This document shows, piece after piece, positions 6,494 to 24,917 of a stretch of 64,000 nt of DNA. Below the pieces are notes generated by a model. The model did no database searches, was not told where the DNA came from, and saw only the letters and a program-made list of their open reading frames with translations. A program made the translations under genes and the position numbers. Location: contig NZ_ARWI01000001.1 of assembly GCF_000478585.1 (NCBI RefSeq), positions 558,001-622,000 on the forward strand, read 5' to 3'. The DNA is from Thiomicrorhabdus sp. Kp2 (GTDB taxonomy: Bacteria; Pseudomonadota; Gammaproteobacteria; Thiomicrospirales; Thiomicrospiraceae). Each line of letters opens with the position of its first letter. Position 1 is the first letter of the stretch.

Positions 6494-7771
6494 TTACTTA
6501 CTGTTTTTAAAATATTTTTGATTACCACGCTCATCAATCGCCCCTGCTAAACGGGCAATGCCATGAATGTAAGCCGCTGTTCTTAAAGAGCATTGATGAT
6601 TTAACGCCAAATCATAAATAATATTCGCTTCTCTGCACATCAGTTTTTTGAGTTTGGCTTCTACTTCCGCCGATTCCCAATAGAGACCAGAACGGTTTTG
6701 CACCCACTCAAAATAACTAACAATCACCCCGCCAGAGTTGGCTAGGACATCAGGAATCACATGAATACCATTTTTCTCTAACACCTCATCGGCTTGCGGT
6801 GTTACTGGGCCATTGGCAATCTCTAACACCGTTTTGGCTTTAATATTGTGTGCGTTTAGCTGGGTAATTTGATTTTCTAACGCCCCTAACACTAAAACAT
6901 CCACCTCTAGCTCAAGCAGCTCATCATTGGACAACTCTTGATAATCAAGCATATTACAAACCGAGCCATCACAATAGACGGAAGCAAGCTTATTGTCAGA
7001 CCGCTTAAAACGGTAAACATCTTCAATATTTAAACCTGAAGTGCTGTAAATAGCGCCTTGCGAATCCGATACTGCCACCACTCTATACCCCATTGCTTTG
7101 GCTAAACGTGCAAAGTGATAGCCCACATTACCAAAACCCTGTACCGCAATGGAGGTCTCTTCAGGCTTGCAGCCTTTACGGCGGGCATATTCATTTAAAG
7201 CATGCAAAGCCCCTTGCCCTGTGGCTGAATTACGCCCTTCTGAGCCGCCCAAATGCACAGGTTTACCAGTGATGGCACCAGGAACTTGTCTACGTGAAAT
7301 CATATTATATTCATCGGCCATCCAGCCCATGATGGTGCTATTGGTATAAACATCTGGTGCTGGAATATCACGAGAGTCGCCCAACATATCCGCAAATGCG
7401 CGAATATAACCACGTGACAAACGCTCCAATTCCAATTTAGATAACTCTTTTGGATTAACCATCACGCCACCTTTAGCACCACCAAAAGGCAAACCAGCAA
7501 CCGCACATTTAACGGTCATCCAAAAACTCAATGAGGTGACTTCATCCAAATTCACTCTAGGGTGATATCGAATCCCACCCTTAGTTGGCCCACGAGTATC
7601 ATCATATTGCACTCGGTAGCCTGTAAAAATCTTTAAGGAACCATCGTCCATTCGTACAGGAATACTGGCAATAATCGATCGCTTTGCTACTGATAAACGA
7701 TCAATCACCTCTTCATCCACATCAATGTATTTAAAAACCGATTCTAACCGCTGCTTTGCGAGTTCAAACAT
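6494..7771 (-). CDS. gdhA: Glutamate dehydrogenase (Glu/Leu/Phe/Val family)
   Basis: 425 residues from the ATG at 7771 (MFELAKQ), which has AAGGAA seven bases upstream; a longer TTG-started form is unlikely. It interconverts glutamate and 2-oxoglutarate plus ammonium in the cytosol. The active-site segment PFGGAKGGV has the catalytic Lys near residue 100, the substrate-binding KGGIR is near 64, and the nucleotide-binding GFGNVG follows. The approximately 425-residue size fits the hexameric bacterial/archaeal type. It stands alone, convergent with the MFS gene. A sigma-70-like promoter and an inverted repeat lie upstream. Confidence 0.92.
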   Translation of the reverse strand: MFELAKQRLESVFKYIDVDEEVIDRLSVAKRSIIASIPVRMDDGSLKIFTGYRVQYDDTRGPTKGGIRYHPRVNLDEVTSLSFWMTVKCAVAGLPFGGAKGGVMVNPKELSKLELERLSRGYIRAFADMLGDSRDIPAPDVYTNSTIMGWMADEYNMISRRQVPGAITGKPVHLGGSEGRNSATGQGALHALNEYARRKGCKPEETSIAVQGFGNVGYHFARLAKAMGYRVVAVSDSQGAIYSTSGLNIEDVYRFKRSDNKLASVYCDGSVCNMLDYQELSNDELLELEVDVLVLGALENQITQLNAHNIKAKTVLEIANGPVTPQADEVLEKNGIHVIPDVLANSGGVIVSYFEWVQNRSGLYWESAEVEAKLKKLMCREANIIYDLALNHQCSLRTAAYIHGIARLAGAIDERGNQKYFKNSK

Positions 7772-8991: not shown

Positions 8992-9064
8992 TGTGTTTCT
9001 CCAGTAAGTGGAAGTTAATTTTGTTTCATGAATCAATAGTATAGAAATATAAAGGTATTAATAT

Positions 9065-9078
9065 TGTACTTAGGTACA
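9065..9078. promoter_or_regulatory. Perfect inverted repeat TGTAC-N4-GTACA
   Basis: The repeat arms are five bases with a TTAG spacer. It lies 74-87 bases upstream of the secreted-protein start and 220 upstream of birA, within the divergent region 8992-9297. A dimeric repressor or activator site is plausible; the protein is unknown. Confidence 0.4.
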
Positions 9079-9096
9079 GTAAATAGCACTCTTTTC

Positions 9097-9122
9097 CGAC
9101 ATGTTACCGACAAGTTACGACA
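9097..9122. promoter_or_regulatory. Tandem CGACA/GTTAC repeats with one-turn spacing
   Basis: CGACA occurs at 9097, 9108 and 9118. The first two units are 11-base tandem repeats differing at one position (CGACATGTTAC, CGACAAGTTAC). A fourth TTCCGACAT at 9261-9269 repeats the sequence at 9095-9103. The array lies about 105-130 bases upstream of the secreted-protein gene and within the divergent region shared with birA. Otherwise this 306-base gap shows no gene. Confidence 0.45.
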
Positions 9123-9297
9123 TTTCCATTTTTTTAAGTATTTACACTTAAATAAGTAATATACAAATCTTCACTCAATTCATTACAAAAAAAACATAAG
9201 CCCACCTACTAAGTGATAACTAAAACAGCAAAAGAGAGCGTTGGGAATTAGTTACAATACTTCCGACATTAAGACTTAACTAACAAGAGTCATTATT

Positions 9298-10038
9298 TTG
9301 AGCCCAAACTATTCTGTAATTAAATTGAAAATCATCGATTCAACTAATCGTTATTTAAAAGATTACGTGTCAGAGCATCGACCCTCTCACCCTGTTTTTT
9401 GCACGACTCAACAACAAACTGCGGGCTATGGTCAACAAAACCGTGTTTGGCAAACCAATGACCATTCAGCCATTTTATCTTTAGCTTATCCATTACCCAT
9501 AAAAGCGGAACTACCAGGCCTGGTAAGTTTGCATATTGCCAAACTATTGCATCAAACCTTAACAGAACTTACTGGCGATAAACTCTACTTAAAGTGGCCT
9601 AATGACCTCTATAACCAACATGGCAAAGTCGCGGGAATTTTGATTGAACAAATCATAAAAAAAGAATACAGGTCATTAATCATTGGCATTGGCATTAACC
9701 GTAATCACAACGAATTAATTGAAACAGCCAGCAGTGTGAGTGATTTTAATACTCAGGAATTGATTGACACCTTGTTTCAAAAAGTCGAGTCGCCTGCTCC
9801 ACAAGCCCCCTCAAAAGGACTGTTAGATTTTTCGCTTATTGAACTGCTTGATTACTGGCAAGACCATGACCTATTTGCCATCGAAGAACCGATTCAACTG
9901 ATTACCGCAGAAGACTTAAATTCAAAAAAACCTGGTTTCTATTTAGGCATAAATGCCCAAGGCCAAGCTTTGATTCGTGTGAATGGCCAAATCCAGCCTC
10001 TCTCATCTGGTCAAACTTCTATTCGTAAACTGACCTAG
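9298..10038 (+). CDS. birA: Biotin--[acetyl-CoA-carboxylase] ligase, catalytic domain only
   Basis: 246 residues starting at a TTG (9298). The protein begins directly with the catalytic domain (IDSTN at 13-17) and has no N-terminal DNA-binding domain, so it is a ligase without repressor function. KWPNDLY and KVAGILIE, which hold the catalytic and biotin-binding residues, are intact. The adenylate-binding loop, normally GRGRxGRxW, reads GYGQQNRVW at 43-51, so two arginines are replaced. It charges biotin carriers, including the large carboxylase coded 4 kb downstream. A perfect palindrome is inside, read P-G-L-V. Confidence 0.88.
   Translation: MSPNYSVIKLKIIDSTNRYLKDYVSEHRPSHPVFCTTQQQTAGYGQQNRVWQTNDHSAILSLAYPLPIKAELPGLVSLHIAKLLHQTLTELTGDKLYLKWPNDLYNQHGKVAGILIEQIIKKEYRSLIIGIGINRNHNELIETASSVSDFNTQELIDTLFQKVESPAPQAPSKGLLDFSLIELLDYWQDHDLFAIEEPIQLITAEDLNSKKPGFYLGINAQGQALIRVNGQIQPLSSGQTSIRKLT
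9513..9524. repeat. ACCAGGCCTGGT palindrome, perfect, in birA
   Basis: Followed by AAG; read as L-P-G-L-V-S. Confidence 0.9.
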
Positions 10039-10062
10039 CCCATCTCAAAACACAACTGATTC

Positions 10063-10094
10063 ATTTTGGTTTGCATTTGAACCAAAATAATACA
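10063..10094. promoter_or_regulatory. NtrC-like upstream element and 9-base inverted repeat
   Basis: ATTTTGGTT (10063-10071) and AACCAAAAT (10080-10088) form a perfect inverted repeat with an 8-base spacer. The right part, TGAACCAAAATAATACA (10078-10094), matches 13 of 17 positions of the element upstream of the substrate-binding protein gene, and resembles an NtrC half site (GCACCAAAAT). It lies about 90-107 bases before the expected sigma-54 start. Confidence 0.5.
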
Positions 10095-10158
10095 TATATA
10101 GCTTCCTAAACACACAACACTACAATAGAAATATTATTAAATAGGAATAAATTATAAA

Positions 10159-10174
10159 TGGCATACCTAGTGCT
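10159..10174 (+). promoter_or_regulatory. Sigma-54 (-24/-12) promoter of the carboxylase operon
   Basis: TGGCATACCTAGTGCT matches the -24/-12 consensus (TGGCAYR-N4-TTGCW) at all but one defined position, with GG and GC in the right register. Transcription would begin near 10185, about 40 bases before the permease start. Confidence 0.65.
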
Positions 10175-10226
10175 TATTACCTTTTTATAAAAAAGTAATA
10201 CCATTTAAACCATCTCAACTAAAAAG

Positions 10227-11213
10227 ATGAGTGCACTTATGAATATGCTGAAAAGTTGGACAACACCACGAACACCTGTCGATAAAAAATCCGCTCGCTT
10301 ACTGACTTTTGCCAGTTTCGCCATTCCTATTTTTCTTTGGTGCTTAGTGAGCTATACACCGTTTATTTGGCATCCACAAGTCGAAATCACTCAAGCTGGT
10401 GGTGTGAGTTACTTTCGTGAAGGCTCTCTAATAGATAAAGAAGTTTTTCAACGAGAAAGAGATCAAAAGATTGCAGAAAACCCACAAATTGATATCGCTA
10501 CTCTTCCACAAGGTAATCCAGCCAATCCCGTTTATTTGCCAGCACCACACGAGGTAGTAACGGCACTATATACTGCATTTACAACCCCGCCAAAACGCAG
10601 TAGTGAGCCTTGGTTGCATGAAAGTTTATGGCACTCTATTCAAGTGATTGCTTGGGGCTTTTTTTGGGCGATGTTATTTGGTGTTCCATTAGGAATCTTA
10701 GCGGGCACTTACAGTGCTGCATCACACCTGATTGAACCCTTTACTGAATTTTTTCGCTACTTACCCGCTCCCGCCTTTGGTGCCCTAGCGGTGGCTATTT
10801 TGGGTATTTATGATGCCCCTAAAATCGCCATTATTTTTATTGGAACCTTTTTTCAAATGGTACTGATTGTCGCCACAACCACCCGCAAGTTAAATATGGC
10901 TTTGGTAGAAGCCTCATTAACCTTAGGTTGCAAAGGCTTTCGCATGATTCGACGCGTGGTATTACCTGGCATATTGCCTGACCTTTACCGTGATATGCGC
11001 ATCCTACTTGGATGGGCGTGGACTTACCTGATTGTGGCGGAATTGATTGGAACAAGCTCGGGGATTACTTGGTTTATTACGCAGCAAGCTCGTTACAAAA
11101 ATTTTGATAATGTGTTTGCGGCCATTTTAATCATCGGCTTAATCGGCTTGATTACCGATATGATTTTGGCACAAATTGGCAAGCGTTTATTCCCTTGGCA
11201 TACAACAAAATAA
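10227..11213 (+). CDS. ABC transporter permease (guanidine/urea-type uptake)
   Basis: 328 residues. One N-terminal membrane segment (about 26-48) is followed by a periplasmic stretch of about 80 residues (ITQAGG to KRSSEP), then five or so membrane segments of the SsuC/TauC-type permease domain. The EAA loop that contacts the ATPase is at EASLTLGCKGFRMIRRVVLPG. The large insertion is typical of permeases coded in urea-carboxylase clusters. It is first in a seven-gene operon and its partners are the ATPase next to it and the substrate-binding protein at 23.4-24.4 kb. Confidence 0.85.
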   Translation: MSALMNMLKSWTTPRTPVDKKSARLLTFASFAIPIFLWCLVSYTPFIWHPQVEITQAGGVSYFREGSLIDKEVFQRERDQKIAENPQIDIATLPQGNPANPVYLPAPHEVVTALYTAFTTPPKRSSEPWLHESLWHSIQVIAWGFFWAMLFGVPLGILAGTYSAASHLIEPFTEFFRYLPAPAFGALAVAILGIYDAPKIAIIFIGTFFQMVLIVATTTRKLNMALVEASLTLGCKGFRMIRRVVLPGILPDLYRDMRILLGWAWTYLIVAELIGTSSGITWFITQQARYKNFDNVFAAILIIGLIGLITDMILAQIGKRLFPWHTTK

Positions 11214-11238
11214 TCAATTGAGCAAAGAGGAGCAACAG

Positions 11239-12150
11239 ATGTTAAAAAAGATTCATCCATTAGCCAATTGGTATACCCCTGAAATTAAAGAGCGTAACCA
11301 ACGCATATTAAATCGTCCAAAAGCGTTAACCATTACGGATTTGCACAAGACCTTTGAGCATAAAGGTAAAAAGGTTAATGTGCTCAATGCCATTGATTTT
11401 ACGGCCTATAAACGTGAGTTTGTGTGTGTAGTTGGCCCTTCTGGTTGTGGTAAATCGACCCTTGCTCGTTTAATAGCAGGCCTGGAAACTCACGAAGTGG
11501 GTGCGATTCATATTGACGACGAATTGGTTGATGGCCCTGGCCCAGATAGAGGCATGGTGTTTCAAAGTTATTCGTTATTCCCGTGGATGACGGTGAAACA
11601 AAACGTGATGTTTGGTTTAACTGAAGGGGGTATGTCCAAAAACCAGGCCGAAGCTGAAGCCTTTCAATGGATTGATTTAGTCGGTCTAGAAAAATTTACC
11701 AACGCCTATCCTCATCAACTGTCTGGTGGTATGAAACAGCGTGTAGCCATTATTAGAGCCTTAGCCAATCAGCCTAAAATTTTATTGATGGACGAGCCCT
11801 TTGCTGCCTTAGATCCGCAAAACCGTTTAAAAATGCAACGCTATCTATTAGAAATCTGGCAAAACATCGACATTACCGTCTTTTTTATCACTCACGATTT
11901 AGATGAAGCCATTTATTTAGCTGACAGAATCTTAATTCTTGAAGCTAACCCTGGACGAGTTTTAGAAACTTTAAGTGTTCCTCTGCCCCGTCCTAGAAAA
12001 GAAGACACACTTCTCAGTCCAGAATTTTTAGCCACCAAAGCGTATCTAGAAAAGTTGGTTCACCCTCCACAAGAGGAAGAAAACATGGAAGAAAAACTCA
12101 GTATGGTTCGCATGGTTTCAGTCAATTCAGAAGTACCGGATATTTTTTAA
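11239..12150 (+). CDS. ABC transporter ATP-binding protein
   Basis: 303 residues from the ATG at 11239, preceded by AGAGGAG. The longer frame starts at a TTG inside the permease and has no such site. Walker A is GPSGCGKST, the signature LSGGMKQR, and Walker B ILLMDEPFAAL, followed by the H-loop ITHDLDEA. It belongs to the nitrate/taurine/sulfonate importer group. A C-terminal tail of about 40 residues (QEEENMEEKLSMVRM) extends past the core domain. It energises uptake for the carboxylase pathway coded downstream. Confidence 0.88.
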   Translation: MLKKIHPLANWYTPEIKERNQRILNRPKALTITDLHKTFEHKGKKVNVLNAIDFTAYKREFVCVVGPSGCGKSTLARLIAGLETHEVGAIHIDDELVDGPGPDRGMVFQSYSLFPWMTVKQNVMFGLTEGGMSKNQAEAEAFQWIDLVGLEKFTNAYPHQLSGGMKQRVAIIRALANQPKILLMDEPFAALDPQNRLKMQRYLLEIWQNIDITVFFITHDLDEAIYLADRILILEANPGRVLETLSVPLPRPRKEDTLLSPEFLATKAYLEKLVHPPQEEENMEEKLSMVRMVSVNSEVPDIF

Positions 12151-12151
12151 T

Positions 12152-12616
12152 ATGACACAACATAACAATAAACTCATTAGAACCAGTGCATCACTTCCCT
12201 CTAGCGTGATTGATGAACTGGATAACCTGATGCAAGCACGTGGATTTAGTAATCGCTCCGCTTTATTAGCAGACATTATTCGTAAAGAAGCCGCCTCTTT
12301 TAGCCAAAACTACACTAATGAGATTATGGCTGGCACCTTTACTATGGTCTATAACCACTCAGTACCAGGCCTACAACAAAAATTAAATCAACTTAAACAT
12401 CAATATGTTGCAGAAATTATCTCTAGTACACAAATTCAACTTATGGATCAGCACACTTTAGAGGTCAACTTAATGCAAGGGCCAGCGCAAGATTTAAAAA
12501 AAATCAGCGATGAGATGATGGCGAATCGTGGCGTAAAAAATGCCAATCTTTACTTAACCCAATCGGCTCTACCGCCTATTTACAGCACTGAAAAAAGCAC
12601 AGGAGAAGTCAAATGA
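12152..12616 (+). CDS. NikR-like ribbon-helix-helix regulator lacking most nickel ligands
   Basis: 154 residues. The N-terminus (RTSASLPSSVIDELDNLM, RGFSNRSALLADIIR) is a ribbon-helix-helix DNA-binding fold, and the rest matches the NikR ligand-binding ACT-like domain (GVKNANLYL near the end). Aligning by eye to E. coli NikR, the ligand His76 is kept (LKHQY), but His87, His89 and Cys95 are Gln, Gln and Thr (TQIQLMDQHTLE). High-affinity nickel binding is therefore unlikely. It starts one base after the ATPase stop and overlaps DUF1989 gene 1 by four bases. It probably reports substrate or product of the pathway to the operon. Confidence 0.82.
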   Translation: MTQHNNKLIRTSASLPSSVIDELDNLMQARGFSNRSALLADIIRKEAASFSQNYTNEIMAGTFTMVYNHSVPGLQQKLNQLKHQYVAEIISSTQIQLMDQHTLEVNLMQGPAQDLKKISDEMMANRGVKNANLYLTQSALPPIYSTEKSTGEVK

Positions 12617-13365
12617 CGGATACAAACCAACCCAGCCAATACAACGGCTTAATCTGGCAAGAACACCTTCCAGGTGGTGCACACTGGTCTGGTGTAATTC
12701 GTCGCGGTACGGTTTTACGTTTAACCGATATTGAAGGCGGAGCAAACGTGGCCATGCTCATTAATAACCTCGAAGTCAAAAACGAACGTTACAACATGCC
12801 AGATACGTTAAAAGCCCAAAAAACGGCCTTTTTAACCACGCCCAATATGTGTTTTAGCGATATGGGAAGAGTCATGTGCTCAGTTATTGTCGACACTTGT
12901 GGTTGGCATGACACCATCGGTGGTCTTTCTAACGCCGCTATTGTGCAAAAAAAGTACGGCAAAAAACCTTACCAGGAAGCGCACAACGACTACTTTAAAA
13001 ATGGCTATGACAGCTTAATTAATGAACTCGGTAAATGGGGTTTAAATGCCAGTGATGTGATGCCAAACATTAACTGGTTTAGCAAGGTTCGTGTAGAAGA
13101 CAATGGCGCTATGACTTTTATTACCAATAATTCTAAAGCGGGAGATTATGTTGATTTACGCTTTGAAATGGACTGCATTGTTAGCTTATCAACCGCTCAA
13201 CACCCAATGGATACTCATCCAGAATATGCCCCTAAACCAATCGAATTGAGTGTTTATAAAGCCCTGCCTGTTGCACAAAACGACCCTTGTCGTTTACACC
13301 GAGCAGAGAATCAAAGAGCCTATTACAACACCAAAGTATTTTATGGAGAGAACCCAAATGACTAA
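12613..13365 (+). CDS. DUF1989 protein, urea-amidolyase-associated protein 1 (probable carboxyguanidine deiminase subunit)
   Basis: 250 residues. It contains [21 protein letters not shown] and the family core [12 protein letters not shown], shared with the following gene. Paired DUF1989 proteins coded with a carboxylase and allophanate hydrolase have been shown in Pseudomonas to form a carboxyguanidine deiminase (CgdAB), which turns carboxyguanidine into allophanate. By position this is one of the two subunits. The ATG overlaps the NikR-like stop (ATGA), and its own end overlaps the next gene by 8 bases, so the pair is tightly coupled. Confidence 0.82.
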
Positions 13366-14017
13366 ACCAACTTTTGATGAAAATCGTATCGTTTATCGTG
13401 AAGTAGTGGCTGCGGGTGACCCATGGATGCACGAAGTGAAAGCAGGCCAGTATTTTAGAATTGTGGATCTTGAAGGTAACCAAGCGGTTGATACCCTTTT
13501 TTACAATGCTAAAGACCATGCTGAACGCTATTCAGCCACTGACACGATTCGTGAACAAGGCAATATTTATTTAACAACAGGCAGCGTATTACAGTCAAAC
13601 CTTTGCAATCCAATGTTAACCATTGTAGACGACACTTGCGGTCGCCACGACACCATTGGTGGAGCCTGTTCCGCTGAGAGTAATACCGTGCGTTACGCCA
13701 TTGAAAAACGCCATATGCACTCTTGCCGTGACTCTTTTTTAATGGCATTGGGCAATATGCAATCAGAAAAATGCGGCTGTCACTCTGATAAAGCAATGAC
13801 TAAAGATGACCTATCAAGCAACATCAACTTTTTTATGAATGTGCCGGTTTCGCCAGATGGTCATCTTGATTTTGATGATGGTATCTCCGCCCCTGGGCGT
13901 TATGTAGAGATGCAAGCTCATATGGATGTATTGGTATTAGTCTCTAACTGTCCACAGTTAAATAATCCATGCAATGGCTACAACCCAACCCCAGTTGAGA
14001 TGGTGATTTGGGAATAA
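13358..14017 (+). CDS. DUF1989 protein, urea-amidolyase-associated protein 2 (probable carboxyguanidine deiminase subunit)
   Basis: 219 residues from the ATG at 13358 ([12 protein letters not shown]), which has GGAGAG upstream; the longer frame runs inside the previous gene. It shares [12 protein letters not shown] with its neighbour. Unlike subunit 1 it has a cysteine/histidine-rich stretch, MHSCRDSF followed by KCGCH, which may hold a metal or the catalytic cysteine. Subunit 1 has EAHNDYF at the same place, suggesting one catalytic and one supporting chain. It is the last small gene before the carboxylase. Confidence 0.82.
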
Positions 14018-14121
14018 ACGTTAAAACTTAGCAACAAAAAACACACTTACAAAATTACAGCCAATTGGGACGACCCAATCTGGTAGAAATCGCTTCAGAA
14101 CGGTCTGAAAAGGAAACAACT

Positions 14122-17100
14122 ATGTTTAATAAAGTGCTCATCGCTAACCGTGGTGCTATTGCGACAAGAATAATTCGTACCCTTAAAAAAATGAATATTC
14201 AGTCTGTGGTCTTAGCCTCAGATGCCGACCGTGCATCGTTACATGTTCAACATGCCGATGAAGTCATTTTTTTACCAGGTAATGTCGCCACAGAAACCTA
14301 CTTAAACGTACCCCTTATTTTAGAAGAAGCGATTAAACGTGGTGTTGAAGCCGTTCATCCTGGCTATGGTTTTTTAAGTGAGAACACTAGTTTTGCCGAA
14401 TCTTGCGAAGCTGCAGGCATTCGTTTTATTGGCCCAGAACCGCAACATATTCGTGACTTTGGTTTAAAACACATTGCCAGAGATTTAGCGATTGAAGCCA
14501 AAGTACCCCTACTGCCAGGATCGGGACTTTTAGACACATTAGACCACGCCTTTTCTGAAGCCAATCGCATTGGCTACCCTGTTATGCTTAAAAGTACAGC
14601 AGGCGGCGGCGGGATTGGTATGCAAAAATGCAACTCGCAAGAAGAGCTATCAGAAGCCTTTGAACAAGTCGCCCGTTTAAGCCAAAACTCTTTTGGACAA
14701 AGCGGTATTTTCTTAGAAAAATTTGTGGTGAATGCGCGTCATATTGAAATTCAAATTTTTGGTGACGGTAATGGCAATGTCGTCTCTTTTGGTGAACGTG
14801 ACTGCTCTTTACAACGTCGTAACCAAAAAGTCGTTGAAGAAACCCCTGCCGTAGACATTAACCGTGACCAAGTAGCCGAGATGGAAGCCCATGCCGTTCG
14901 TTTAGGTGAATTAGTTAGCTACAAATCCGCAGGAACGGTGGAATACGTTTACGATGCCGACACCAATGAATACTATTTTTTAGAGGTCAATACGCGTCTG
15001 CAAGTTGAACACGGTATTACCGAAGCGGTTAGAAACGTCGATTTAGTTGAATGGATGGTTAAAGTGGCTTATGAAGCCAAACTGCCGCTTACTGCCGAAC
15101 AAATTCAGCCCGCCCAAGGTCACGCCATAGAAGTACGCGTTTATGCAGAAGACCCATTTAAAAACTTTCAACCTAGTACGGGTAAATTAACGGGTTGGAC
15201 TATGCCAGAAAACTGCCGTGTAGATACTTGGTGTGACCGTGGAATAGAAGTCAGCTCATTTTATGATCCAATGTTGGCCAAAATTATTGTTAAAGGCAAT
15301 ACCCGAGAAGAAGCCGTTAAAAAACTGCAACAGGCTATGGACACTACAAAAATTGATGGTTTTGAAACCAACATTGTTTATTTAGGTGCGCTAAGTCATT
15401 CTGATAAATTTAAAAATGGTAGCGGTCTTTACACGCAATTTTTAAATCACTTTATGCACACGCCTAATACCATTGAAGTGACCAACCCTGGTACACACTC
15501 TATGATAGTCAGTTACCCAGGTCGAGTTGGCTTTTGGGATATTGGTGTACCACCATCAGGGCCAATGGATTCTTTATCGCACCGTTTAGCCAACCGCTGT
15601 TTAAACAACCCCGAAGATGCCGCAACCATAGAGATGACTGTATCGGGTGTGGGTCTCACCTTTGATAAAGACACGGTTATCTGTATTACAGGTGCTGACA
15701 TTCAAGCCACGCTAGATAAACAACCTATTCCACAATGGCAAGCTATTCATGTTAAAGCGGGTCAACAATTAAAATCTAAAGTGATTAAAGATATTGGTCA
15801 ACGAGCTTATTTAGCGGTGCTCGGCGGTTTTGATGTGCCAGATTATATGGGCAGTAAAACCACCTTCTCATTAGGTAAGTTTGGTGGTCACGGTGGTCGT
15901 TTATTGCGTACTGGTGATGTATTACGTTTAACCGATATTGAAGACAATCAAGAGTTACCAGGCCTGCCAAAACAGGTTATTCCTGCATTAACAAATCAAT
16001 ATGAAATTGCCGTCATCTACGGCCCACAAGGTTGCCCCGATTTCTTTACAGAACAAGATATTGAAACCTTTTTTGCTGCTGAGTGGCAAGTGCATTACAA
16101 CTCAAGCCGTACAGGTATTCGCTTAATTGGGCCAAAACCAAAATGGGCACGTAAAGATGGGGGCGAAGCAGGCTTACACCCATCTAATATTCATGACAAC
16201 CCTTATGCAATTGGTGCCATTGACTTTACGGGCGATATGCCCGTTATCTTGGCGCAAGATGGCCCAAGTTTAGGTGGTTTTGTTTGCCCAGCGACCATTA
16301 TTGAAGCAGAACAATGGAAAATGGGACAGCTTCGTCCTGGAGATAAGGTACGCTTTAAAGCGGTATCGATTGAAACGGCTGAACTGGCGATTGCTCATTA
16401 TGAAAAAGCCATTGCAGATTTAGACACTCCAACCACCCTTGAGCTACCTTATTTACCTGAATCCACTGAGCAATCTTGTATTGCCCATGAAACCTCGGCA
16501 GATGAGCATGAGTTTGGTGTTAAATACCGCCGTTCTGGTGACAGCCATGTTTTGATTGAATACGGCAAAATGGAGCTCGATTTAGCGTTACGTTTTCGTA
16601 TTCAAGTGTTATATGAACGTTTAAAAACCCATAAAGAAGACCTAGATAACCAGGCCTGGTCATTTTTAAAAGAGTTAACGCCAGGTATTCGTTCATTGCA
16701 GGTTCACTATGACCCTAAACAGATTACCCAATCAGAAATTATTCAAAAACTCATCCAGTTAGAAGAAGAAATTTCATCTGGTCAAGATTTAACCGTTAAA
16801 AGCCGTATTGTGCGTTTACCGCTCTCTTGGGATGACCCAAGCACCAAACTCGCTATTGAAAAATACATGACAACGGTTCGCCCTAATGCCCCTTGGTGCC
16901 CAAGTAATATTGAATTTATTCGCCGTATCAATGGCTTAGAGAGCATTGAAGACGTTAAAAAAATTATCTTTGACGCTAAATATTTAGTTATGGGCTTAGG
17001 CGATGTTTATTTGGGAGCCCCCGTTGCTACTCCGCTTGACCCTCGCCATCGTTTAGTGACCACAAAATACAACCCAGCCAGAACCTGGACACCCGAAAAT

Positions 17101-17766
17101 GCCGTGGGGATTGGTGGTGCCTATATGTGTGTATATGGCATGGAAGGCCCAGGTGGTTACCAGTTTGTGGGTAGAACCATTCAAATGTGGAACCCTTATC
17201 ACATTACCAACAACTTCCCCGTTGGCAAACCGTGGTTATTAGACTTTTTTGACCAAATTCAATACTACCCTGTTTCAGAAGAAGAGCTGGCGCAGGCCCG
17301 TTTAGACTTCCCTTTAGGGCGTTATGATATTGAGATTGAAGAGACTGAACTCTCTTTAAATAAATACCAAGCTTTCTTAGCTGAAAACACAACAACGATT
17401 GAAGCATTTCAAGCTCAACAACAAGGTGCGTTTGAAGCCGAAAGACAGTACTGGGAAGAATCAGGCCTAGCCAATTTTGAAGCCGAAACCGCCCAAGAAG
17501 AGATTCAAAATGAGGTCGCGACTGAAATCCCAGAAGGCTTTGAAGCTGCAACGTCCCCTATTACAGGCAGTGTATGGAAACTACAAGTTAAACCTGGCGA
17601 TAAAGTGCAAGAAGACGACACCATCGCCATTTTAGAAACCATGAAAATAGAAATACCTGTTGTGGCTGAAACATCAGGTACGGTCACTGAAATTTTGGTT
17701 AATGAAGGTGATCTTATTCAAACAGGTCAAAACTTAATGGTGCTTGAACTGGAAGCTGAGGCATAA
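14122..17766 (+). CDS. Biotin-dependent urea/guanidine carboxylase
   Basis: 1214 residues from the ATG at 14122, with AAGGAAA upstream. Order of domains: biotin carboxylase with ATP-grasp (residues 1-450; GGGGIGM, ERDCSLQRRNQK, EVNTRLQVEH), a carboxyltransferase region related to KipA/KipI (about 455-1030), a helical linker, and a C-terminal biotin carrier domain with ETMKIEI, where Lys1175 takes the biotin. It carboxylates urea to allophanate or guanidine to carboxyguanidine, using bicarbonate and ATP. The two DUF1989 neighbours and the ABC importer favour guanidine. One perfect palindrome lies inside (16649). Confidence 0.9.
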   Translation: MFNKVLIANRGAIATRIIRTLKKMNIQSVVLASDADRASLHVQHADEVIFLPGNVATETYLNVPLILEEAIKRGVEAVHPGYGFLSENTSFAESCEAAGIRFIGPEPQHIRDFGLKHIARDLAIEAKVPLLPGSGLLDTLDHAFSEANRIGYPVMLKSTAGGGGIGMQKCNSQEELSEAFEQVARLSQNSFGQSGIFLEKFVVNARHIEIQIFGDGNGNVVSFGERDCSLQRRNQKVVEETPAVDINRDQVAEMEAHAVRLGELVSYKSAGTVEYVYDADTNEYYFLEVNTRLQVEHGITEAVRNVDLVEWMVKVAYEAKLPLTAEQIQPAQGHAIEVRVYAEDPFKNFQPSTGKLTGWTMPENCRVDTWCDRGIEVSSFYDPMLAKIIVKGNTREEAVKKLQQAMDTTKIDGFETNIVYLGALSHSDKFKNGSGLYTQFLNHFMHTPNTIEVTNPGTHSMIVSYPGRVGFWDIGVPPSGPMDSLSHRLANRCLNNPEDAATIEMTVSGVGLTFDKDTVICITGADIQATLDKQPIPQWQAIHVKAGQQLKSKVIKDIGQRAYLAVLGGFDVPDYMGSKTTFSLGKFGGHGGRLLRTGDVLRLTDIEDNQELPGLPKQVIPALTNQYEIAVIYGPQGCPDFFTEQDIETFFAAEWQVHYNSSRTGIRLIGPKPKWARKDGGEAGLHPSNIHDNPYAIGAIDFTGDMPVILAQDGPSLGGFVCPATIIEAEQWKMGQLRPGDKVRFKAVSIETAELAIAHYEKAIADLDTPTTLELPYLPESTEQSCIAHETSADEHEFGVKYRRSGDSHVLIEYGKMELDLALRFRIQVLYERLKTHKEDLDNQAWSFLKELTPGIRSLQVHYDPKQITQSEIIQKLIQLEEEISSGQDLTVKSRIVRLPLSWDDPSTKLAIEKYMTTVRPNAPWCPSNIEFIRRINGLESIEDVKKIIFDAKYLVMGLGDVYLGAPVATPLDPRHRLVTTKYNPARTWTPENAVGIGGAYMCVYGMEGPGGYQFVGRTIQMWNPYHITNNFPVGKPWLLDFFDQIQYYPVSEEELAQARLDFPLGRYDIEIEETELSLNKYQAFLAENTTTIEAFQAQQQGAFEAERQYWEESGLANFEAETAQEEIQNEVATEIPEGFEAATSPITGSVWKLQVKPGDKVQEDDTIAILETMKIEIPVVAETSGTVTEILVNEGDLIQTGQNLMVLELEAEA
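16649..16660. repeat. ACCAGGCCTGGT palindrome, perfect, in carboxylase gene
   Basis: Followed by CA; read as Q-A-W (DNQAWSF) in the carboxyltransferase region. Weaker relatives occur at 15957 (10/12) and 17460 (8/12) in the same gene. Confidence 0.9.
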
Positions 17767-17768
17767 AG

Positions 17769-19580
17769 ATGAAAGAACTTAATTTAACATTAACCTCTTT
17801 AAAACAGTCCTACTCAGAAAAGAGCTTAACGCCAAGAGAGTTAATCAAAACGCTATTGAATAAAGCTGTTGACTACCGAGATTACAACCTGTTTATTCAC
17901 CAACTAACAGAAGCCGAACTTGAACCTTATTTAAGCCGTCTTGAGCAATCAGAACCCAATAGCTTGCCTTTATGGGGCGTGCCATTTGTGATTAAAGATA
18001 ATATTGATTTAGCCAATATTCCTACCACGGCGGCCTGTAAAGAGTATCGCTATGTACCCAAAGAATCGGCCACGGTTGTGCAAACGTTAATTGACGCAGG
18101 CGCTATTCCCATTGCCAAAGCCAATATGGATCAATTTGCAACAGGCCTGGTCGGTACTCGATCACCCTATGGAGAGTGCCATAACGCCTTTGACTTTAGC
18201 AAAATTTCTGGTGGTTCAAGTTCTGGCTCTGCGGTCTCTTTAGCCTTAAATTTATGCAGTTTTTCATTAGGAACAGACACCGCAGGTTCTGGCCGAGTGC
18301 CAGCCGCCTTTAACAATTTAATTGGCCTTAAACCTTCAAAGGGGTTATTAAGCACCAAAGGGGTTGTACCTGCGGTTCGCTCGCAAGATGTGGTGAGCAT
18401 TTTTGCTCTCAATTCACAAGACGCTTACCAAGTGTTTGATGTGACATCACAATTTGATGAAGCCGATGAATTCAGTCGCCACGAAAATGAAATGACGCCC
18501 CCTGCTTGGCAGGCAAAACCCATTATTGGTATTCCAGGTAACGAAAGCCTGTTTTTTGATGGCGATGCACAAGCTCAACAAAACTTTAGCGAAACCGTAT
18601 CCAGTTTAGAAAAACTAGGCTATCAAATCAAAACCGTGCCATTTAAAGTCTGGATAGACACCGCAAAACTGCTTTATGGTGGAGCTTGGGTGGCCGAACG
18701 TTTTGTTGCCATTGAAGCGTTTTTTAAAGAACATGAATCCATTATGGATTCAAGCGTAGCAAGCATTATTGCAGGCGCAAAAAACCTTACGGCCGCCGAT
18801 GCTTATCAAGGTAGTTACGCCCTACAAAAAGCCCAGCGTGAAACTGAAATTTTATGGCAACAACATGGCATTGATTGCATGATGACCCCGACCACACCGA
18901 CGATTTATGCAATCAATGCGGTTAAACAAGACCCAATTGGCTTAAATTCAAAGTTAGGTACTTACACCAACTTTATGAATTTATTAGATTATGCAGCCAT
19001 TGCAATGCCAACAGGGTTTAGAAAAGATAGTTTACCAACAGGGGTGACTTTCTTTGCACCCGCTGGCGCAGACCGCTGTTTAATGCAACTAACGGACACA
19101 CTTCACCCACAGTTTGTAGAAGCCTCTGGCGCACGGTTTTTAGAAGTTCCACAAGCCAATCCTCAACTATTCAACAATATGCAAACCATTCCATTAGCGG
19201 TAGTTGGTGCGCATTTAGTCGGTTTTCCACTCAATAGTCAATTGATTGAACGCGGTGCAACTTTATTAGAAACCACTCAAACCGCACCTAAATATGCGTT
19301 TTATGAACTAGCAGGTGGCGCTATTCTTAAACCAGGCCTGGTAAAACAGACCGAAGGCGGAGAATCGATTGAATTAGAAATCTGGAATATGCCTAAACAA
19401 CATTTAGGCAGTTTTTTAGCCCTTATCCCATCCCCTTTAGGTTTAGGTAAAGTAGAACTGATTGATGGCAGACAAGTAGTTGGATTTATTTGCGAACCTT
19501 GTGGCATAGAAGGCGCAACCGATATCACGCATACAGGCGGTTGGCGAAACTGGATAAAAGAACGCAACGCAAAATCCTAA
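17769..19580 (+). CDS. atzF: Allophanate hydrolase
   Basis: 603 residues. The N-terminal amidase-signature domain has the Lys76 / Ser150 / Ser174 triad (VIKDN, GGSSSGS, DTAGSGR) with the usual spacing. The C-terminal domain of about 150 residues (from PQANPQLF) is the second domain of AtzF-type enzymes. It splits allophanate to ammonia and carbon dioxide, the last step of the pathway. The start lies two bases after the carboxylase stop. It closes the operon and is followed by a strong terminator. Two palindrome copies lie inside. Confidence 0.92.
   Translation: MKELNLTLTSLKQSYSEKSLTPRELIKTLLNKAVDYRDYNLFIHQLTEAELEPYLSRLEQSEPNSLPLWGVPFVIKDNIDLANIPTTAACKEYRYVPKESATVVQTLIDAGAIPIAKANMDQFATGLVGTRSPYGECHNAFDFSKISGGSSSGSAVSLALNLCSFSLGTDTAGSGRVPAAFNNLIGLKPSKGLLSTKGVVPAVRSQDVVSIFALNSQDAYQVFDVTSQFDEADEFSRHENEMTPPAWQAKPIIGIPGNESLFFDGDAQAQQNFSETVSSLEKLGYQIKTVPFKVWIDTAKLLYGGAWVAERFVAIEAFFKEHESIMDSSVASIIAGAKNLTAADAYQGSYALQKAQRETEILWQQHGIDCMMTPTTPTIYAINAVKQDPIGLNSKLGTYTNFMNLLDYAAIAMPTGFRKDSLPTGVTFFAPAGADRCLMQLTDTLHPQFVEASGARFLEVPQANPQLFNNMQTIPLAVVGAHLVGFPLNSQLIERGATLLETTQTAPKYAFYELAGGAILKPGLVKQTEGGESIELEIWNMPKQHLGSFLALIPSPLGLGKVELIDGRQVVGFICEPCGIEGATDITHTGGWRNWIKERNAKS
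18140..18151. repeat. ACCAGGCCTGGT palindrome, 11/12, in atzF
   Basis: AACAGGCCTGGT followed by CG; read as T-G-L-V. Confidence 0.8.
19331..19342. repeat. ACCAGGCCTGGT palindrome, perfect, in atzF
   Basis: Followed by AAAA; read as K-P-G-L-V-K. Confidence 0.9.
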
Positions 19581-19601
19581 TAACCTTTCGACTTGAATGA
19601 A

Positions 19602-19655
19602 TAAAACGACCAGGCCTTTATACCCCCTTGCGGGGTGTGGTCGTTTTAACTTTTT
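19602..19655 (+). terminator. Terminator of the carboxylase operon, containing a partial palindrome
   Basis: An 11-base outer stem (19602-19612 with 19638-19648) encloses an inner ACCCC/GGGGT hairpin, and TTTTTCTTTT follows. The left arm runs into ACCAGGCCTTTA, a 9/12 relative of the iterated palindrome. Confidence 0.85.
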
Positions 19656-19716
19656 CTTTTGTAACTTACCATCAGAGCATAGCACTCCCTGTAAAAAAGG
19701 GCGTAGCTTCTGTTAA

Positions 19717-20631
19717 CTAAGTATCTGAATCTTTATGAGTTCTTAATGCCTCAATTAGGGCTGCACTCAAGATTAATGCGGCGCCCAAGCCTTCAATTAA
19801 ATTCAATGTTTCGCCGTTTAGTAACATAGCAGAAACAACCGCTGCAACCAGCTCCATAATCATAATAATGGATGACTGGCTTGCTGGCATGTGTGTCACC
19901 GCCCACTGAGAACCGAGATTAGAGATCAATAACCAGATTAAACCAAATGCGGCTAACCACAACCATGCCATTGAAGGTATTTCAGAGGCTAGGTGAATGC
20001 CTTGATTGAATACCAACATGCCTGACATCAGCATTGTGCCGATAAACAAAGCACTAAGTTTTACGACAACAGGCAGAGATTGCACGCCTCTAAAAGCGAT
20101 ATTGTTCATGGCAAATAAAAAGCCAGAAAGCAATGCTAAAAAATCGATCCACGTTGGTGGTGATTCAAATACTTCAACACCTCCAACCACTAAAAACGCC
20201 CCCGAAATTGCCAGGCCTGCTGCTAACCAACCTAACATGGGCACACGTTCTTTTAATATAAATTTACCGCCTAACACACCCCAAAGTGGTAATAAATAAA
20301 ACAACACCATCACTCGAATCACATCGCCATAAATTAACGAATAGTTAAAGGCTAAATTGGCACCGCCCCCAAGCACGGCAATTAATAACCAGGGTTTAAG
20401 ATTGTTTTTGAGTGAGGCTCTAAAGCGCCATAAAATCGGTAAAAACAGCAAACTTAATAATCCGTAGGCTACAAAAATAATAAACGGCCCATCAAACCCC
20501 ATTTGATGCAGTGACTTTAGCGGCCACCAACTTAACCCCCAAAATATCGAAGCAATCAATAGCACTAATACAGGTCGTTTATCTTTAGCCGCAGCCTGAT
20601 AATTTACGGCTTGGGTTAATCCGATTTCCAT
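19717..20631 (-). CDS. EamA/DMT-family transporter
   Basis: 304 residues, ten predicted membrane segments in two EamA repeats. The second half ends ILSAALIEAL. It probably exports a metabolite; substrate unknown. Its ATG overlaps the stop of the isomerase-like gene by one base (TAATG). It is last in the minus-strand run that begins at the substrate-binding protein and converges on the carboxylase operon. Confidence 0.85.
   Translation of the reverse strand: MEIGLTQAVNYQAAAKDKRPVLVLLIASIFWGLSWWPLKSLHQMGFDGPFIIFVAYGLLSLLFLPILWRFRASLKNNLKPWLLIAVLGGGANLAFNYSLIYGDVIRVMVLFYLLPLWGVLGGKFILKERVPMLGWLAAGLAISGAFLVVGGVEVFESPPTWIDFLALLSGFLFAMNNIAFRGVQSLPVVVKLSALFIGTMLMSGMLVFNQGIHLASEIPSMAWLWLAAFGLIWLLISNLGSQWAVTHMPASQSSIIMIMELVAAVVSAMLLNGETLNLIEGLGAALILSAALIEALRTHKDSDT
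20210..20221. repeat. Palindrome relative, 10/12, in EamA gene
   Basis: GCCAGGCCTGCT; read as A-A-G-L-A on the coding strand. Included as an example of the degenerate class. Confidence 0.5.
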
Positions 20632-21485
20632 TACAAAAACACCTCTAAAAATTGCTGTTGTTCAATTTGATTCATCCACTGATTTATTTCAGATAAATCG
20701 GCCACTGGCATTTGGGTAAATGGTTGTAAATGCAAATAACCGTCTGGCCCAAATTCTGGCGTTAAGGTGGTCACTGCAAATCCCTTTGCAAACTGGGCTT
20801 GCCAAACAGTCTCCCAAACTCGCTGATGCGACTTTAATGCTTTTGCATACTCTGGTGCTGCTGGATGTGGCACTTGCGGACCTTGGTCATAACCAACCCT
20901 TGCATGAATATGATGAACGTTGCTTTTTATTGCGTGGATCACATCCATTTCAGTGTCCATTAAACGTTCACATACCACACACCAATGACTGATATCTAAA
21001 GTTAATTTAATCTCTGGTAAGACTTTAACCACTTTACGGGTAATCCATGGGTTAAATAAAGAGCGGCTTCGGTGGGTTTCAAAACAGACATCTATGCCAT
21101 AGTCTTGGCCAATTTGCATGGCTTGCTCAAAAAATTTGATTGATTGAGATTCTTCCCAAGCATCACACCCTGTTATGCAGGTGGCAAACAGAGGGTTTAA
21201 AGGCATTGAATCATCCAGCTGTCTTTTAATGTCGTCTAAATGCTGATTTTCGCTCCAGTTTCTATTTGGCACGTAATCCCCACCTGTCACAATTTCAGCA
21301 ATGTAATTGCACTGAGTCTCTTGCAACGTATTATGCCATTTAGCTTGCTCAATACGCTGTTGTGGAGCTTGACCTTCAATGCCACTAAAGCCTTTTTGAA
21401 TGGCATCTTGACAGGCCTGGTCAATCGGCAAGGTGTTTCCCCAGAGGGTTTTAAAGGTTTTTAATTGCATAGAATCTATAGCCAT
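20631..21485 (-). CDS. TIM-barrel sugar-phosphate isomerase/epimerase-like protein
   Basis: 284 residues of the xylose isomerase-like/AP-endonuclease-2 superfamily. Likely metal-site residues are in ICFETHRSRS-type (VCFETHRSR), LTLDISHWC and HIHARVGYDQG, in the usual order along the barrel. Reaction unknown; family members isomerise or dehydrate sugars and keto acids using a divalent metal. It is sandwiched between the metallo-beta-lactamase-fold gene (2-base gap) and the EamA gene (1-base overlap), so all three are probably translated together. Confidence 0.8.
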   Translation of the reverse strand: MAIDSMQLKTFKTLWGNTLPIDQACQDAIQKGFSGIEGQAPQQRIEQAKWHNTLQETQCNYIAEIVTGGDYVPNRNWSENQHLDDIKRQLDDSMPLNPLFATCITGCDAWEESQSIKFFEQAMQIGQDYGIDVCFETHRSRSLFNPWITRKVVKVLPEIKLTLDISHWCVVCERLMDTEMDVIHAIKSNVHHIHARVGYDQGPQVPHPAAPEYAKALKSHQRVWETVWQAQFAKGFAVTTLTPEFGPDGYLHLQPFTQMPVADLSEINQWMNQIEQQQFLEVFL

Positions 21486-21487
21486 TA

Positions 21488-22270
21488 CTATTCAAAAAAG
21501 TTAGGGAAACGATTGTGTCTTTGAAAGAAATCCCAATCATGATTTGGCCAGAGATTAGCCTGGTTATGTTGGCTAAACTGTTTAAGCTTTTGAATGCTCT
21601 CAATTGCCATTTTTTCATTGTCTTGCCAACATAGGCCTGGTGGAATTTCTTGTTCTATATTCTCAACTAAATCAGCTGCATCACCCGCAAGAATAATTGG
21701 CTGGCCTTTAGGTAATTCAATGAACATGGACATATGTCCGGCGGTATGCCCAGGTGTTTCAATGGCTCTTACACCTGGCACCAAGTCATACTCCTCTGTT
21801 TGAATTTTCCAGTTAAGAGGCAAATCAAAATCAGAGGTAAAGTAGGCTTCGTCTTCAAGGTTTTTAGCGGCACTCATCTCTTGTGCATGAACATGCACCT
21901 CGGCATGACAAAACTCACATAATCCGCCCGCATGGTCAAAATGTAAATGGCTACAAAACACCACATCGACATCCTCTGGCTGTAAACCTAAAATTTGTAG
22001 TTTATTAGGTAACTGCTGCTCCTCTTCCATCTCTGGCGGACCAAACGGAAAACCGTCATGTTCATAATATTTTTGGCGCAAGTCTGGCTGCTGAATTTTT
22101 TGGTAATCACAACCTACGTCAAACAAAATTCGTCCATTATTGGTTTCAATTAAATAAGCCAAAATCGGTGCTTTAATAATTTGACCTTGGCCCACACCAC
22201 GAGTAGAAAGCGTTTTTTCATAGGTATGTTGGCCTGTTAAGATTGGCCAGAACTTTTTAACTTGAGTCAT
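21488..22270 (-). CDS. Metallo-beta-lactamase-fold hydrolase, N-acyl homoserine lactonase-like
   Basis: 260 residues. The zinc motif HLHFDH is at 108-113, with a later GHTAGH and DAAD providing the remaining ligands. This arrangement and size fit the AttM/AiiA-type lactonase group. That group covers many lactone and ester hydrolases, and nothing in the window (no luxI/luxR) points to quorum signals. It sits 16 bases after the desaturase-like gene and 2 bases before the isomerase-like gene. Confidence 0.85.
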   Translation of the reverse strand: MTQVKKFWPILTGQHTYEKTLSTRGVGQGQIIKAPILAYLIETNNGRILFDVGCDYQKIQQPDLRQKYYEHDGFPFGPPEMEEEQQLPNKLQILGLQPEDVDVVFCSHLHFDHAGGLCEFCHAEVHVHAQEMSAAKNLEDEAYFTSDFDLPLNWKIQTEEYDLVPGVRAIETPGHTAGHMSMFIELPKGQPIILAGDAADLVENIEQEIPPGLCWQDNEKMAIESIQKLKQFSQHNQANLWPNHDWDFFQRHNRFPNFFE

Positions 22271-22286
22271 GCGGTTCTCACTTGAA

Positions 22287-23312
22287 TCAATGTGCAGTTA
22301 AAAAAGAGACGCCATCAACCCCAATAAAGGTTTCACCTTCCTCTTTTTTAACAGGTAAATTAATCGGGTCGCCATTTAAAATGCGAGGCACTCGGTATTT
22401 ATGAAAACTTTTAATTAGGTGTTTAAAGGTCAGAATTTGCTGATATTCATCACCAAACATCTCCTTATGCAACTTAGGCAAGCGATACCAGGGTTGCAAT
22501 TGCTGTTCATGATGAACATTGTGGTAACTAAAATTTAACACCAATAAATTAACCCAAGGATACTTAACAGAAAGTAAATTTGAGTAAGTATTATGCTCTT
22601 CAAACTCACGGTCTCTTAAACGCGCCTCGGCACCTCTAGGTAAATCTAAAGTTTCATACACTTCATAGGTGTGTTGGTGAACATCCATAAATCGCATGAC
22701 CGTTAAAAACAGCATATAGGCTAATGGGTATAACCATAGAATATGGATAGAAATGGATGCTAACCAGGTAAATAAGGTAACTCTTAAAGCAAGTACGATA
22801 AGAATTCTTAACCGATTGTGTTTTCTATTTTCTTTTACAAAAGGCAGTATTAATACAAGCAGGTGCATTAAAACTTCAAGCGCGGGTATATAGAACCACT
22901 CTAAAGTTTTAATCCCTTTTAAAACAACGGGATGCTTTTCTAAAATTGGCCTAAAATCAAATGAAACAATGTCCGCCCTATCACTATGATGGCGATTGTG
23001 TTTGCGTTGGATATCTTCAAAATTAGAGTAACTATTACCCGTTATCCACAATAAAAACTCAGCAAACCAACGATTGTGTTTTTTGTTTTTAAAAACACTG
23101 AAGTGTGCTGCTTCATGAATTAGGTAGGCGGCTATTACCATCGCGTGGGCTAACAAAACAATCCCAACCAGGTTTAACCATAAAGACTCGGAAAGCATTA
23201 ATCCAAATCCAAAAAAATAAGTGCTCATTACATAAAACAGAGCAATAATTGTTGGAAACAAAGCATCGTCATGTCTAAAAAAACGTGAACTTGTTTTCAT
23301 GCGAGACCCCAT
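22287..23312 (-). CDS. Membrane fatty-acid desaturase-like di-iron protein
   Basis: 341 residues with four to six membrane segments. Histidine boxes are HEAAH (66-70), HNRHH (105-109) and HNVHH (264-268), with an extra HQH near 212-214. These hold the di-iron centre of membrane desaturases and hydroxylases. The substrate could be a lipid or a small molecule. It follows the substrate-binding protein gene by 81 bases containing paired palindromes. An alternative ATG is at 23300. The location inside a nitrogen locus is unusual for a lipid desaturase. Confidence 0.85.
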   Translation of the reverse strand: MGSRMKTSSRFFRHDDALFPTIIALFYVMSTYFFGFGLMLSESLWLNLVGIVLLAHAMVIAAYLIHEAAHFSVFKNKKHNRWFAEFLLWITGNSYSNFEDIQRKHNRHHSDRADIVSFDFRPILEKHPVVLKGIKTLEWFYIPALEVLMHLLVLILPFVKENRKHNRLRILIVLALRVTLFTWLASISIHILWLYPLAYMLFLTVMRFMDVHQHTYEVYETLDLPRGAEARLRDREFEEHNTYSNLLSVKYPWVNLLVLNFSYHNVHHEQQLQPWYRLPKLHKEMFGDEYQQILTFKHLIKSFHKYRVPRILNGDPINLPVKKEEGETFIGVDGVSFLTAH

Positions 23313-23331
23313 GATTACAACTTTAGAAATG

Positions 23332-23368
23332 ACCAGGCCTGGTAACTTTTAAAGCTACCAGGCCTGGA
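23332..23368. repeat. Paired ACCAGGCCTGGT copies between substrate-binding protein and desaturase genes
   Basis: A perfect copy (23332-23343) and a one-mismatch copy (23357-23368) lie 13 bases apart. 23333-23344 can pair fully with 23356-23367, a 12-base stem with an 11-base loop that itself contains CTTT-T-AAAG. This could be an mRNA processing or attenuation element between the first gene and the four downstream ones. No strong T run follows it on the minus strand. Confidence 0.85.
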
Positions 23369-23393
23369 GGATTAATCAAAAAAGCAGATAAAA

Positions 23394-24380: not shown

Positions 24381-24426
24381 ATCACTACTCCAGTATTACT
24401 AATTAAGAAAAGGGTAATACCATATA

Positions 24427-24442
24427 AGCAATTGAAGTACCA
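24427..24442 (-). promoter_or_regulatory. Sigma-54 (-24/-12) promoter of the substrate-binding protein gene
   Basis: On the minus strand the site reads TGGTACTTCAATTGCT, a near-complete match to TGGYAYR-N4-TTGCW. Expected start is near 24416, about 36 bases before the ATG. It mirrors the promoter at 10159-10174. Confidence 0.65.
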
Positions 24443-24525
24443 ACTGTTTGAAACGGCGTATTTACAGCAACTAGGTTATATTTTCAAAAACAAAACGAAC
24501 TAAATGACTTGTTTTGACTCAAAAA

Positions 24526-24542
24526 AATACTATTTTGGTGCA
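24526..24542. promoter_or_regulatory. NtrC-like enhancer site
   Basis: AATACTATTTTGGTGCA matches 14 of 17 positions of the NtrC-type site TGCACTATTTTGGTGCA. It lies about 110-126 bases before the sigma-54 start of the substrate-binding protein, a normal enhancer distance. The rest of 24381-24673 shows no gene. Confidence 0.55.
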
Positions 24543-24673
24543 TAAAAACAATGCAGATATCAGAAAAGACTATTTACTTTGAAATAAAAAAAGAAAGTTT
24601 AAGAGAAATAAGAAAAAATGAGATTAGGCTTCAAGTGAAGCAGAGCTGAACTATAAAATAAGAAAGAAAAAAG

Positions 24674-24750
24674 TGGGGCGAATGACGGGGATCGAACCCG
24701 CGACAACAGGAATCACAATCCTGGGCTCTACCAACTGAGCTACATCCGCC
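24674..24750 (-). tRNA. tRNA-His (GTG)
   Basis: Full cloverleaf with anticodon GTG. The 5' end has the extra G(-1) opposite C73, the identity element of tRNA-His, and CCA is encoded. It is the last tRNA of a Pro-Arg-His operon. Confidence 0.95.
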
Positions 24751-24780
24751 ATAGATGGCGTGATGAACACACCATAAATA

Positions 24781-24857: not shown

Positions 24858-24917
24858 GTTATCGAACCTTTTGACTATTGAACTGAGAATGTGACCATTT
24901 TCAATTCAATAAGAATA

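Follow-up and report, generated by a model that had tools for sequence, protein, structure and literature searches.

The window analysed here, a 64,000-nucleotide stretch of Thiomicrorhabdus sp. Kp2 DNA, contains a gene for a NikR-like regulator embedded in a predicted operon for guanidine uptake and degradation. A gene for a substrate-binding protein, the second predicted target of the regulator, lies downstream. The features of the locus are:

10159-10174, plus strand: sigma-54-like -24/-12 box, TGGCATACCTAGTGCT, abutting operator 1
10174-10201, no strand assigned: predicted operator 1, TTATTAC-N14-GTAATAC, upstream of the permease gene
10227-11213, plus strand: ABC transporter permease
11242-12150, plus strand: ABC transporter ATPase
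12152-12616, plus strand: NikR-like regulator, 154 aa, ribbon-helix-helix and ACT-type domains; nickel-ligand positions occupied by H83/Q94/Q96/T102 (sequence alignment); conserved C-terminal LPPI tail that includes P141
12613-13365, plus strand: UAAP1 (DUF1989), carboxyguanidine deiminase subunit, TIGR03425
13343-14017, plus strand: UAAP2 (DUF1989), carboxyguanidine deiminase subunit, TIGR03424
14122-17766, plus strand: guanidine carboxylase, with Asp1330 and Asp1584 (K. lactis numbering) in the motifs AIDFTGD and GLGDVYLG
17769-19580, plus strand: allophanate hydrolase, TIGR02713
23394-24380, minus strand: ABC transporter substrate-binding protein (NMT1-like), predicted second regulator target
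24393-24420, no strand assigned: predicted operator 2, GTATTAC-N14-GTAATAC, upstream of the substrate-binding-protein gene
24427-24442, minus strand: sigma-54-like box, TGGTACTTCAATTGCT, 6 bp upstream of operator 2

The genes around the regulator are tightly packed, with the ATPase gene ending 2 bp before the regulator gene begins and UAAP1 starting at 12613, before the regulator gene ends. The order permease, ATPase, NikR-like regulator, UAAP1, UAAP2, carboxylase, allophanate hydrolase was fixed in all long loci examined; the preliminary description had placed the regulator within a carboxylase operon. UAAP1 was missing from all host-family genomes tested that lack the regulator (24/24). Matches to TIGR03425, TIGR03424 and TIGR02713 were above cut-off, indicating that both deiminase subunits and the allophanate hydrolase are present. 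Alignment of the window carboxylase to 5i8i placed Asp at K. lactis positions 1330 and 1584, the criterion for a guanidine, rather than a urea, carboxylase (PMC11410670), and we observed this guanidine signature in every linked-cluster carboxylase that could be read. The curated model TIGR02712 labels 14122-17766 a urea carboxylase despite the signature. The Acinetobacter cluster additionally holds an SMR exporter and a 2OG-Fe(II) oxygenase; a known guanidine operon also includes a 2OG-Fe(II) oxygenase (PMC12508155).

Further genes recur around these clusters. Between the operon and the substrate-binding-protein gene, minus-strand genes at 19717-23312 encode an EamA transporter, a TIM-barrel protein, a metallo-beta-lactamase-fold lactonase-like protein and a di-iron desaturase-like protein. 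All or some of them recur near guanidine clusters of other genomes (L036, L037, L039, L050, L052-L054 and L148), and the desaturase-like and TIM-barrel genes lie inside a riboswitch-bearing guanidine cluster (L264); they are candidates for a pathway that oxidises a larger guanidino compound. At L149 (7521-9677), a creatininase-family gene is followed by a type III glutamine-synthetase-like gene. This pair recurs in guanidine clusters L145, L147, L244, L245, L246, L255, L260 and L264, under NikR-like operators or guanidine-I riboswitches and in some clusters without a carboxylase, and is possibly a second guanidine pathway.

We identified both NikR domains in the 154-residue regulator using Pfam (NikR_C, 7.8e-22; RHH_1, 1.1e-4), with each match above the gathering cut-off, and a phmmer alignment to P. 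horikoshii NikR (2bj1) had an E-value of 7.3e-24. A Foldseek search with the predicted structure, a model of modest confidence, gave top matches that were all NikR, such that Pfam, phmmer and Foldseek all point to the NikR architecture of a ribbon-helix-helix domain followed by an ACT-type NikR_C domain. The scores fell below the NCBIfam cut-offs for NikR (99.7 vs 105, 75.2 vs 83 and 69.7 vs 175 bits). In the alignment to 2bj1, H83 corresponds to His76, Q94 to His87, Q96 to His89 and T102 to Cys95, meaning that the high-affinity nickel site is absent from the window regulator (H/Q/Q/T). Glu30 of the domain-interface cation site (Glu30/Asp34) is also gone: it is replaced by A37 here, by Ala throughout the host family and by Gln or Ala in distant members, and the Asp34 position in the clade holds Asp or Glu, with Thr in one member. 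The R-x-S-x-S DNA-binding strand is retained. Hence, the by-eye reading that had described a NikR homologue with His76 kept, His87, His89 and Cys95 replaced by Gln, Gln and Thr, and an intact fold and DNA-binding half agrees with the alignment and the domain matches. An AlphaFold model built from 13 close sequences was weak (pLDDT 62) and was left out of the reading of pocket geometry.

The regulator gene is present in 24 of 63 host-family genomes, including that of the window, with related loci on records named Thiomicrorhabdus, Hydrogenovibrio and Thiomicrospira; the other copies are 60-94% identical to the window regulator. Alignment of these homologues, a check that had been proposed for the ligand replacement, showed that the H/Q/Q/T quartet is invariant in 24/24 proteins. 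Since the quartet is invariant while the protein diverges to 60% identity, we conclude that it does not reflect decay. Distant members, found in a large, evenly drawn but not exhaustive genome sample, belong to Gammaproteobacteria and other classes of the phylum, Alphaproteobacteria among them, and further members come from records labelled Acinetobacter, Novosphingobium and Asticcacaulis. A tree of 70 sequences, built with the ligand columns left in, placed the 32 cluster-linked regulators on one side of a single, long branch with support of 100/99. The HHHC nickel quartet was found in none of these 32 proteins, as compared to 38/38 canonical NikRs from other genomes. Quartets within the clade were HQQT, HHHT, HNNT, YNNT, SNNI, YHNT, YHHT, RHHT and (G/S/V/A)HFS, and those of the Acinetobacter members, read from the alignment, were QHQI and QHQV. 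Cys95 is never retained, two distant members retain all three histidines (HHHT), and Glu30 is gone in 32/32. The 32 tree sequences all share E88, Q109 and P141, with Gln in place of E88 in the Acinetobacter members, and P141 sits in a tail mostly missing from canonical NikRs. Ligand loss is a clade-wide trait, which goes beyond what had been seen in the window protein. The monophyly of the clade, its linkage to these clusters and its lack of the nickel quartet strongly support the view that the regulator left nickel and was recruited into the carboxylase operon.

The genomic context is consistent with this view. The host genome is a single contig of 2.73 Mb that encodes one NikR_C protein. We found no urease alpha subunit in it and no NiFe hydrogenase above cut-off, the latter giving a sub-threshold match only, so the earlier remark that the operon has no nickel enzyme holds and a nickel role is not expected. 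No metal transporter was seen in the regulon, and the clade members examined have guanidine-type neighbours, with no linkage to nickel transport or nickel enzymes.

A dyad common to the promoter regions 10040-10226 and 24381-24542 was first spotted by eye, and the operator mapping suggested for these regions yielded a predicted operator in each. Across the 2.7-Mb genome, operators 1 and 2 are the only exact matches to the motif KTATTAC-N14-GTAATAM. The dyad lies upstream of the permease gene in 21/21 loci, always with a 14-bp spacer and in one case with one further mismatch, and, in no fewer than 14 additional loci, a short way upstream of the gene for the substrate-binding protein; some genomes have a third copy before the creatininase-family gene. 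At least two operator copies were found in 23/24 genomes with the regulator, as compared to 1/39 without it (Fisher 6e-15). Distant clusters, including GC-rich ones, carry GTAWTAC-N14-GTAWTAC at the matching place, and L246 carries GTATGAC-N14-GTCATAC. The predicted dyads have the form expected of NikR operators, inverted repeats of 27-28 bp with two half-sites of 6-7 bp: they are 28 bp long, as is the E. coli NikR operator, GTATGA-N16-TCATAC (PMC7055735), and the half-site differs by one base from the delta-proteobacterial NikR consensus, GTGTTAC-[N13/14]-GTAACAC (PMC545781). Chance occurrence of the operators was ruled out by the count in the host's own genome, by the genomes lacking the regulator and by the recurrence in GC-rich genomes; the finding of one match in 237 kb of riboswitch-controlled clusters versus 23 in 268 kb also counts against chance.

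Both promoters contain a sigma-54-like box of the type TGGYAY-N5-TTGCT, an addition to the preliminary description. The box ends one base inside the operator in 18/21 permease promoters, and usually lies 6 bp before it in substrate-binding-protein promoters and most distant clusters, where the distance is near-constant. Box scores averaged 17.8 of 22, as compared to 13.0 (sd 2.05) for random stretches, and some of the substrate-binding-protein and creatininase promoters have a weak box or none. Because the dyad overlaps the expected transcription start, its position is indicative of repression. NtrC-like dyads lie ~90-150 bp upstream of the operator in a few genomes. A search for a conserved NtrC enhancer site found no such dyad in the window, and it is from the sigma-54-like boxes that we infer possible nitrogen control of the operon.

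Several other sites were noted. A perfect dyad, TTTTGGTTTGCATTTGAACCAAAA, lies at ~10064-10087, ~110 bp upstream of operator 1, and has a similar counterpart in the nearest relative (L035); it is a possible activator site, not NtrC-like. L145 (G188) has four operators in one cluster (6838, 7010, 9662 and 15314), close to where the genes for the binding protein, UAAP1, the carboxylase and a second binding protein begin, and also has a guanidine-II aptamer upstream of the carboxylase, which would place DNA and RNA control in series. In L099 (G031), an exact operator copy at 7137-7164 lies ~130 bp upstream of a gene for an 846-residue protein whose start resembles that of a membrane chemoreceptor, and which is possibly a guanidine-linked taxis receptor.

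We next consider the guanidine riboswitches. No guanidine-I, -II or -III aptamer was found in the window at the gathering threshold, or at E <= 5 in 9000-25300, and the host genome has no guanidine-I riboswitch. In a survey of 52 genomes, the guanidine-I riboswitch was found in 0/29 genomes with NikR-linked clusters, as compared to 19/22 with UAAP1 but no linked regulator (Fisher 3e-11). Among the latter there are three riboswitch-free exceptions: G110 has a NikR-like fragment, the contig of G358 is truncated, and G274 is no more than a weak paralogue. In L264, which lacks NikR, an almost identical operon carries two guanidine-I riboswitches; the cluster holds substrate-binding protein, permease, ATPase, creatininase and glutamine-synthetase-like genes, and also desaturase-like, TIM-barrel, UAAP1, UAAP2, carboxylase and hydrolase genes. 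The creatininase/glutamine-synthetase-like units of G088 and G180 are likewise under guanidine-I riboswitches. Strict exclusion between the two kinds of switch was rejected: in three NikR-linked clusters the carboxylase is closely preceded by a guanidine-II aptamer, and both Acinetobacter loci have a guanidine-I riboswitch beside operators. In G273, riboswitch and NikR-like control are both present, in separate units. As both kinds of switch serve the same genes, the simplest common signal is guanidine.

Judging from sequence comparisons, we think it probable that the regulator is a NikR-derived, nickel-independent repressor of guanidine uptake and degradation that is released by guanidine or a close guanidino relative. 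The tetramer would retain the NikR mode of DNA binding and occupy the KTATTAC-N14-GTAATAM dyads, overlapping the start region of the sigma-54-type promoters and blocking the transporter/carboxylase operon and the substrate-binding-protein gene. Guanidine or a close relative would bind the remodelled former nickel pocket, or a nearby site, and release the regulator from DNA, such that expression would require both sigma-54 activation, probably in response to nitrogen limitation, and substrate. DNA binding by the regulator, guanidine as the inducer and the direction of the response, release on binding, are all points that we infer. Known NikR binds DNA when ligand-loaded, and induction by substrate would therefore need the reversed logic. 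Pocket residues differ among subclades (e.g. HQQT, HHHT, YNNT, RHHT, GHFS and QHQI); there is therefore no single conserved guanidine pocket, and the ligand contacts cannot be named.

It is unlikely, although less so than the other alternatives, that the regulator acts on this operon in response to a signal other than guanidine, be it a pathway intermediate or a nitrogen signal (e.g. carboxyguanidine, allophanate or an amino acid bound by its ACT-type domain). ACT-type domains often bind amino acids, and the controlled clusters L150, L244 and L246 hold a transporter, a creatininase and/or a glutamine-synthetase-like gene with no carboxylase, such that the signal could be one unconnected with that enzyme. 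However, these same clusters argue against allophanate, and riboswitches in equivalent positions, including those of the G088 and G180 units, respond to guanidine itself. The preliminary description had suggested recruitment to sense guanidine, allophanate or another metal. Recruitment stands, and guanidine is the best supported of these ligands, given the carboxylase signature, the exchange with guanidine-I riboswitches and the co-occurrence of guanidine-II aptamers; allophanate and a different metal are both less probable.

We consider it improbable that the protein has remained a metal sensor, responding to a different metal or, with changed affinity, to nickel, and that it selects the nickel-free guanidine route according to metal supply. 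A route using a nickel guanidinase plus urease is known in other bacteria (PMC11410670), and His76 is retained in the host family, as are all three histidines in the two HHHT members; however, Cys95 and Glu30 have been lost clade-wide, a planar nickel site would not be expected from the Q/Q, N/N and H/F versions, the host genome has no urease and no NiFe hydrogenase above cut-off, and no metal transporter was seen in the regulon. Least probable is a constitutive, ligand-free repressor, or a modulator with a decayed pocket, with induction left to sigma-54 and its activator only. The variability of pocket residues between subclades and the ability of sigma-54-like promoters, in principle, to regulate alone would fit such a scheme. 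By contrast, the host-family quartet is invariant in a diverging protein, and the regulator occupies the place of a ligand-responsive riboswitch. A NikR-family repressor that has moved off nickel and reports guanidine, an unusual system under an ordinary gene name, is the most likely reading of these sequences.

The regulator shares with the NikRs of E. coli, H. pylori and P. horikoshii the two-domain fold, by sequence and fold search, with P. horikoshii NikR the R-x-S-x-S strand, and with described NikR operators the architecture of its predicted 28-bp dyad (PMC7055735, PMC545781). It differs from them in lacking the nickel quartet and Glu30, in its subfamily-specific C-terminal PP tail and conserved E88 and Q109, in a regulon for guanidine uptake and degradation rather than nickel, and in a predicted operator that overlaps a sigma-54-like promoter. 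Guanidine-I and -II riboswitches, e.g. in Vreelandella boliviensis (PMC12508155), control the same genes, and in L264 guanidine-I riboswitches control nearly the same operon with an orthologous transporter; those are RNA aptamers, whereas here a protein and a predicted DNA operator would act, with both present in a few clusters. CdbA (PMC7156744) is likewise a ribbon-helix-helix DNA-binding protein and binds an organic small molecule, c-di-GMP; as far as its description goes, it has no NikR_C domain, and its ligand and role are different. A 2025 review lists riboswitches as the only known guanidine receptors besides transporters and enzymes, and allows that transcription factors binding guanidine could still come to light (PMC12186494). 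Searches of open-licence papers found no earlier report of NikR or a ribbon-helix-helix protein with guanidine, or of NikR with urea carboxylase. To our knowledge, no guanidine-sensing transcription factor has been described before, and this regulator would be the first.

With somewhat less assurance than for the repressor itself, we favour the broader view that a widespread clade of former nickel sensors is the protein counterpart of the guanidine riboswitches and includes the first guanidine-responsive transcription factor, its metal site having been rebuilt several times for an organic cation, in association with sigma-54 promoters and in exchange with riboswitches. The window thus offers a concrete candidate for a guanidine-responsive transcription factor with defined predicted operators, and a natural setting in which to compare protein-based with RNA-based switching of the same genes. 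The automatic labels "NikR" and "urea carboxylase" are misleading for such operons, in which the fold of a metal sensor would have shifted to a new signal.
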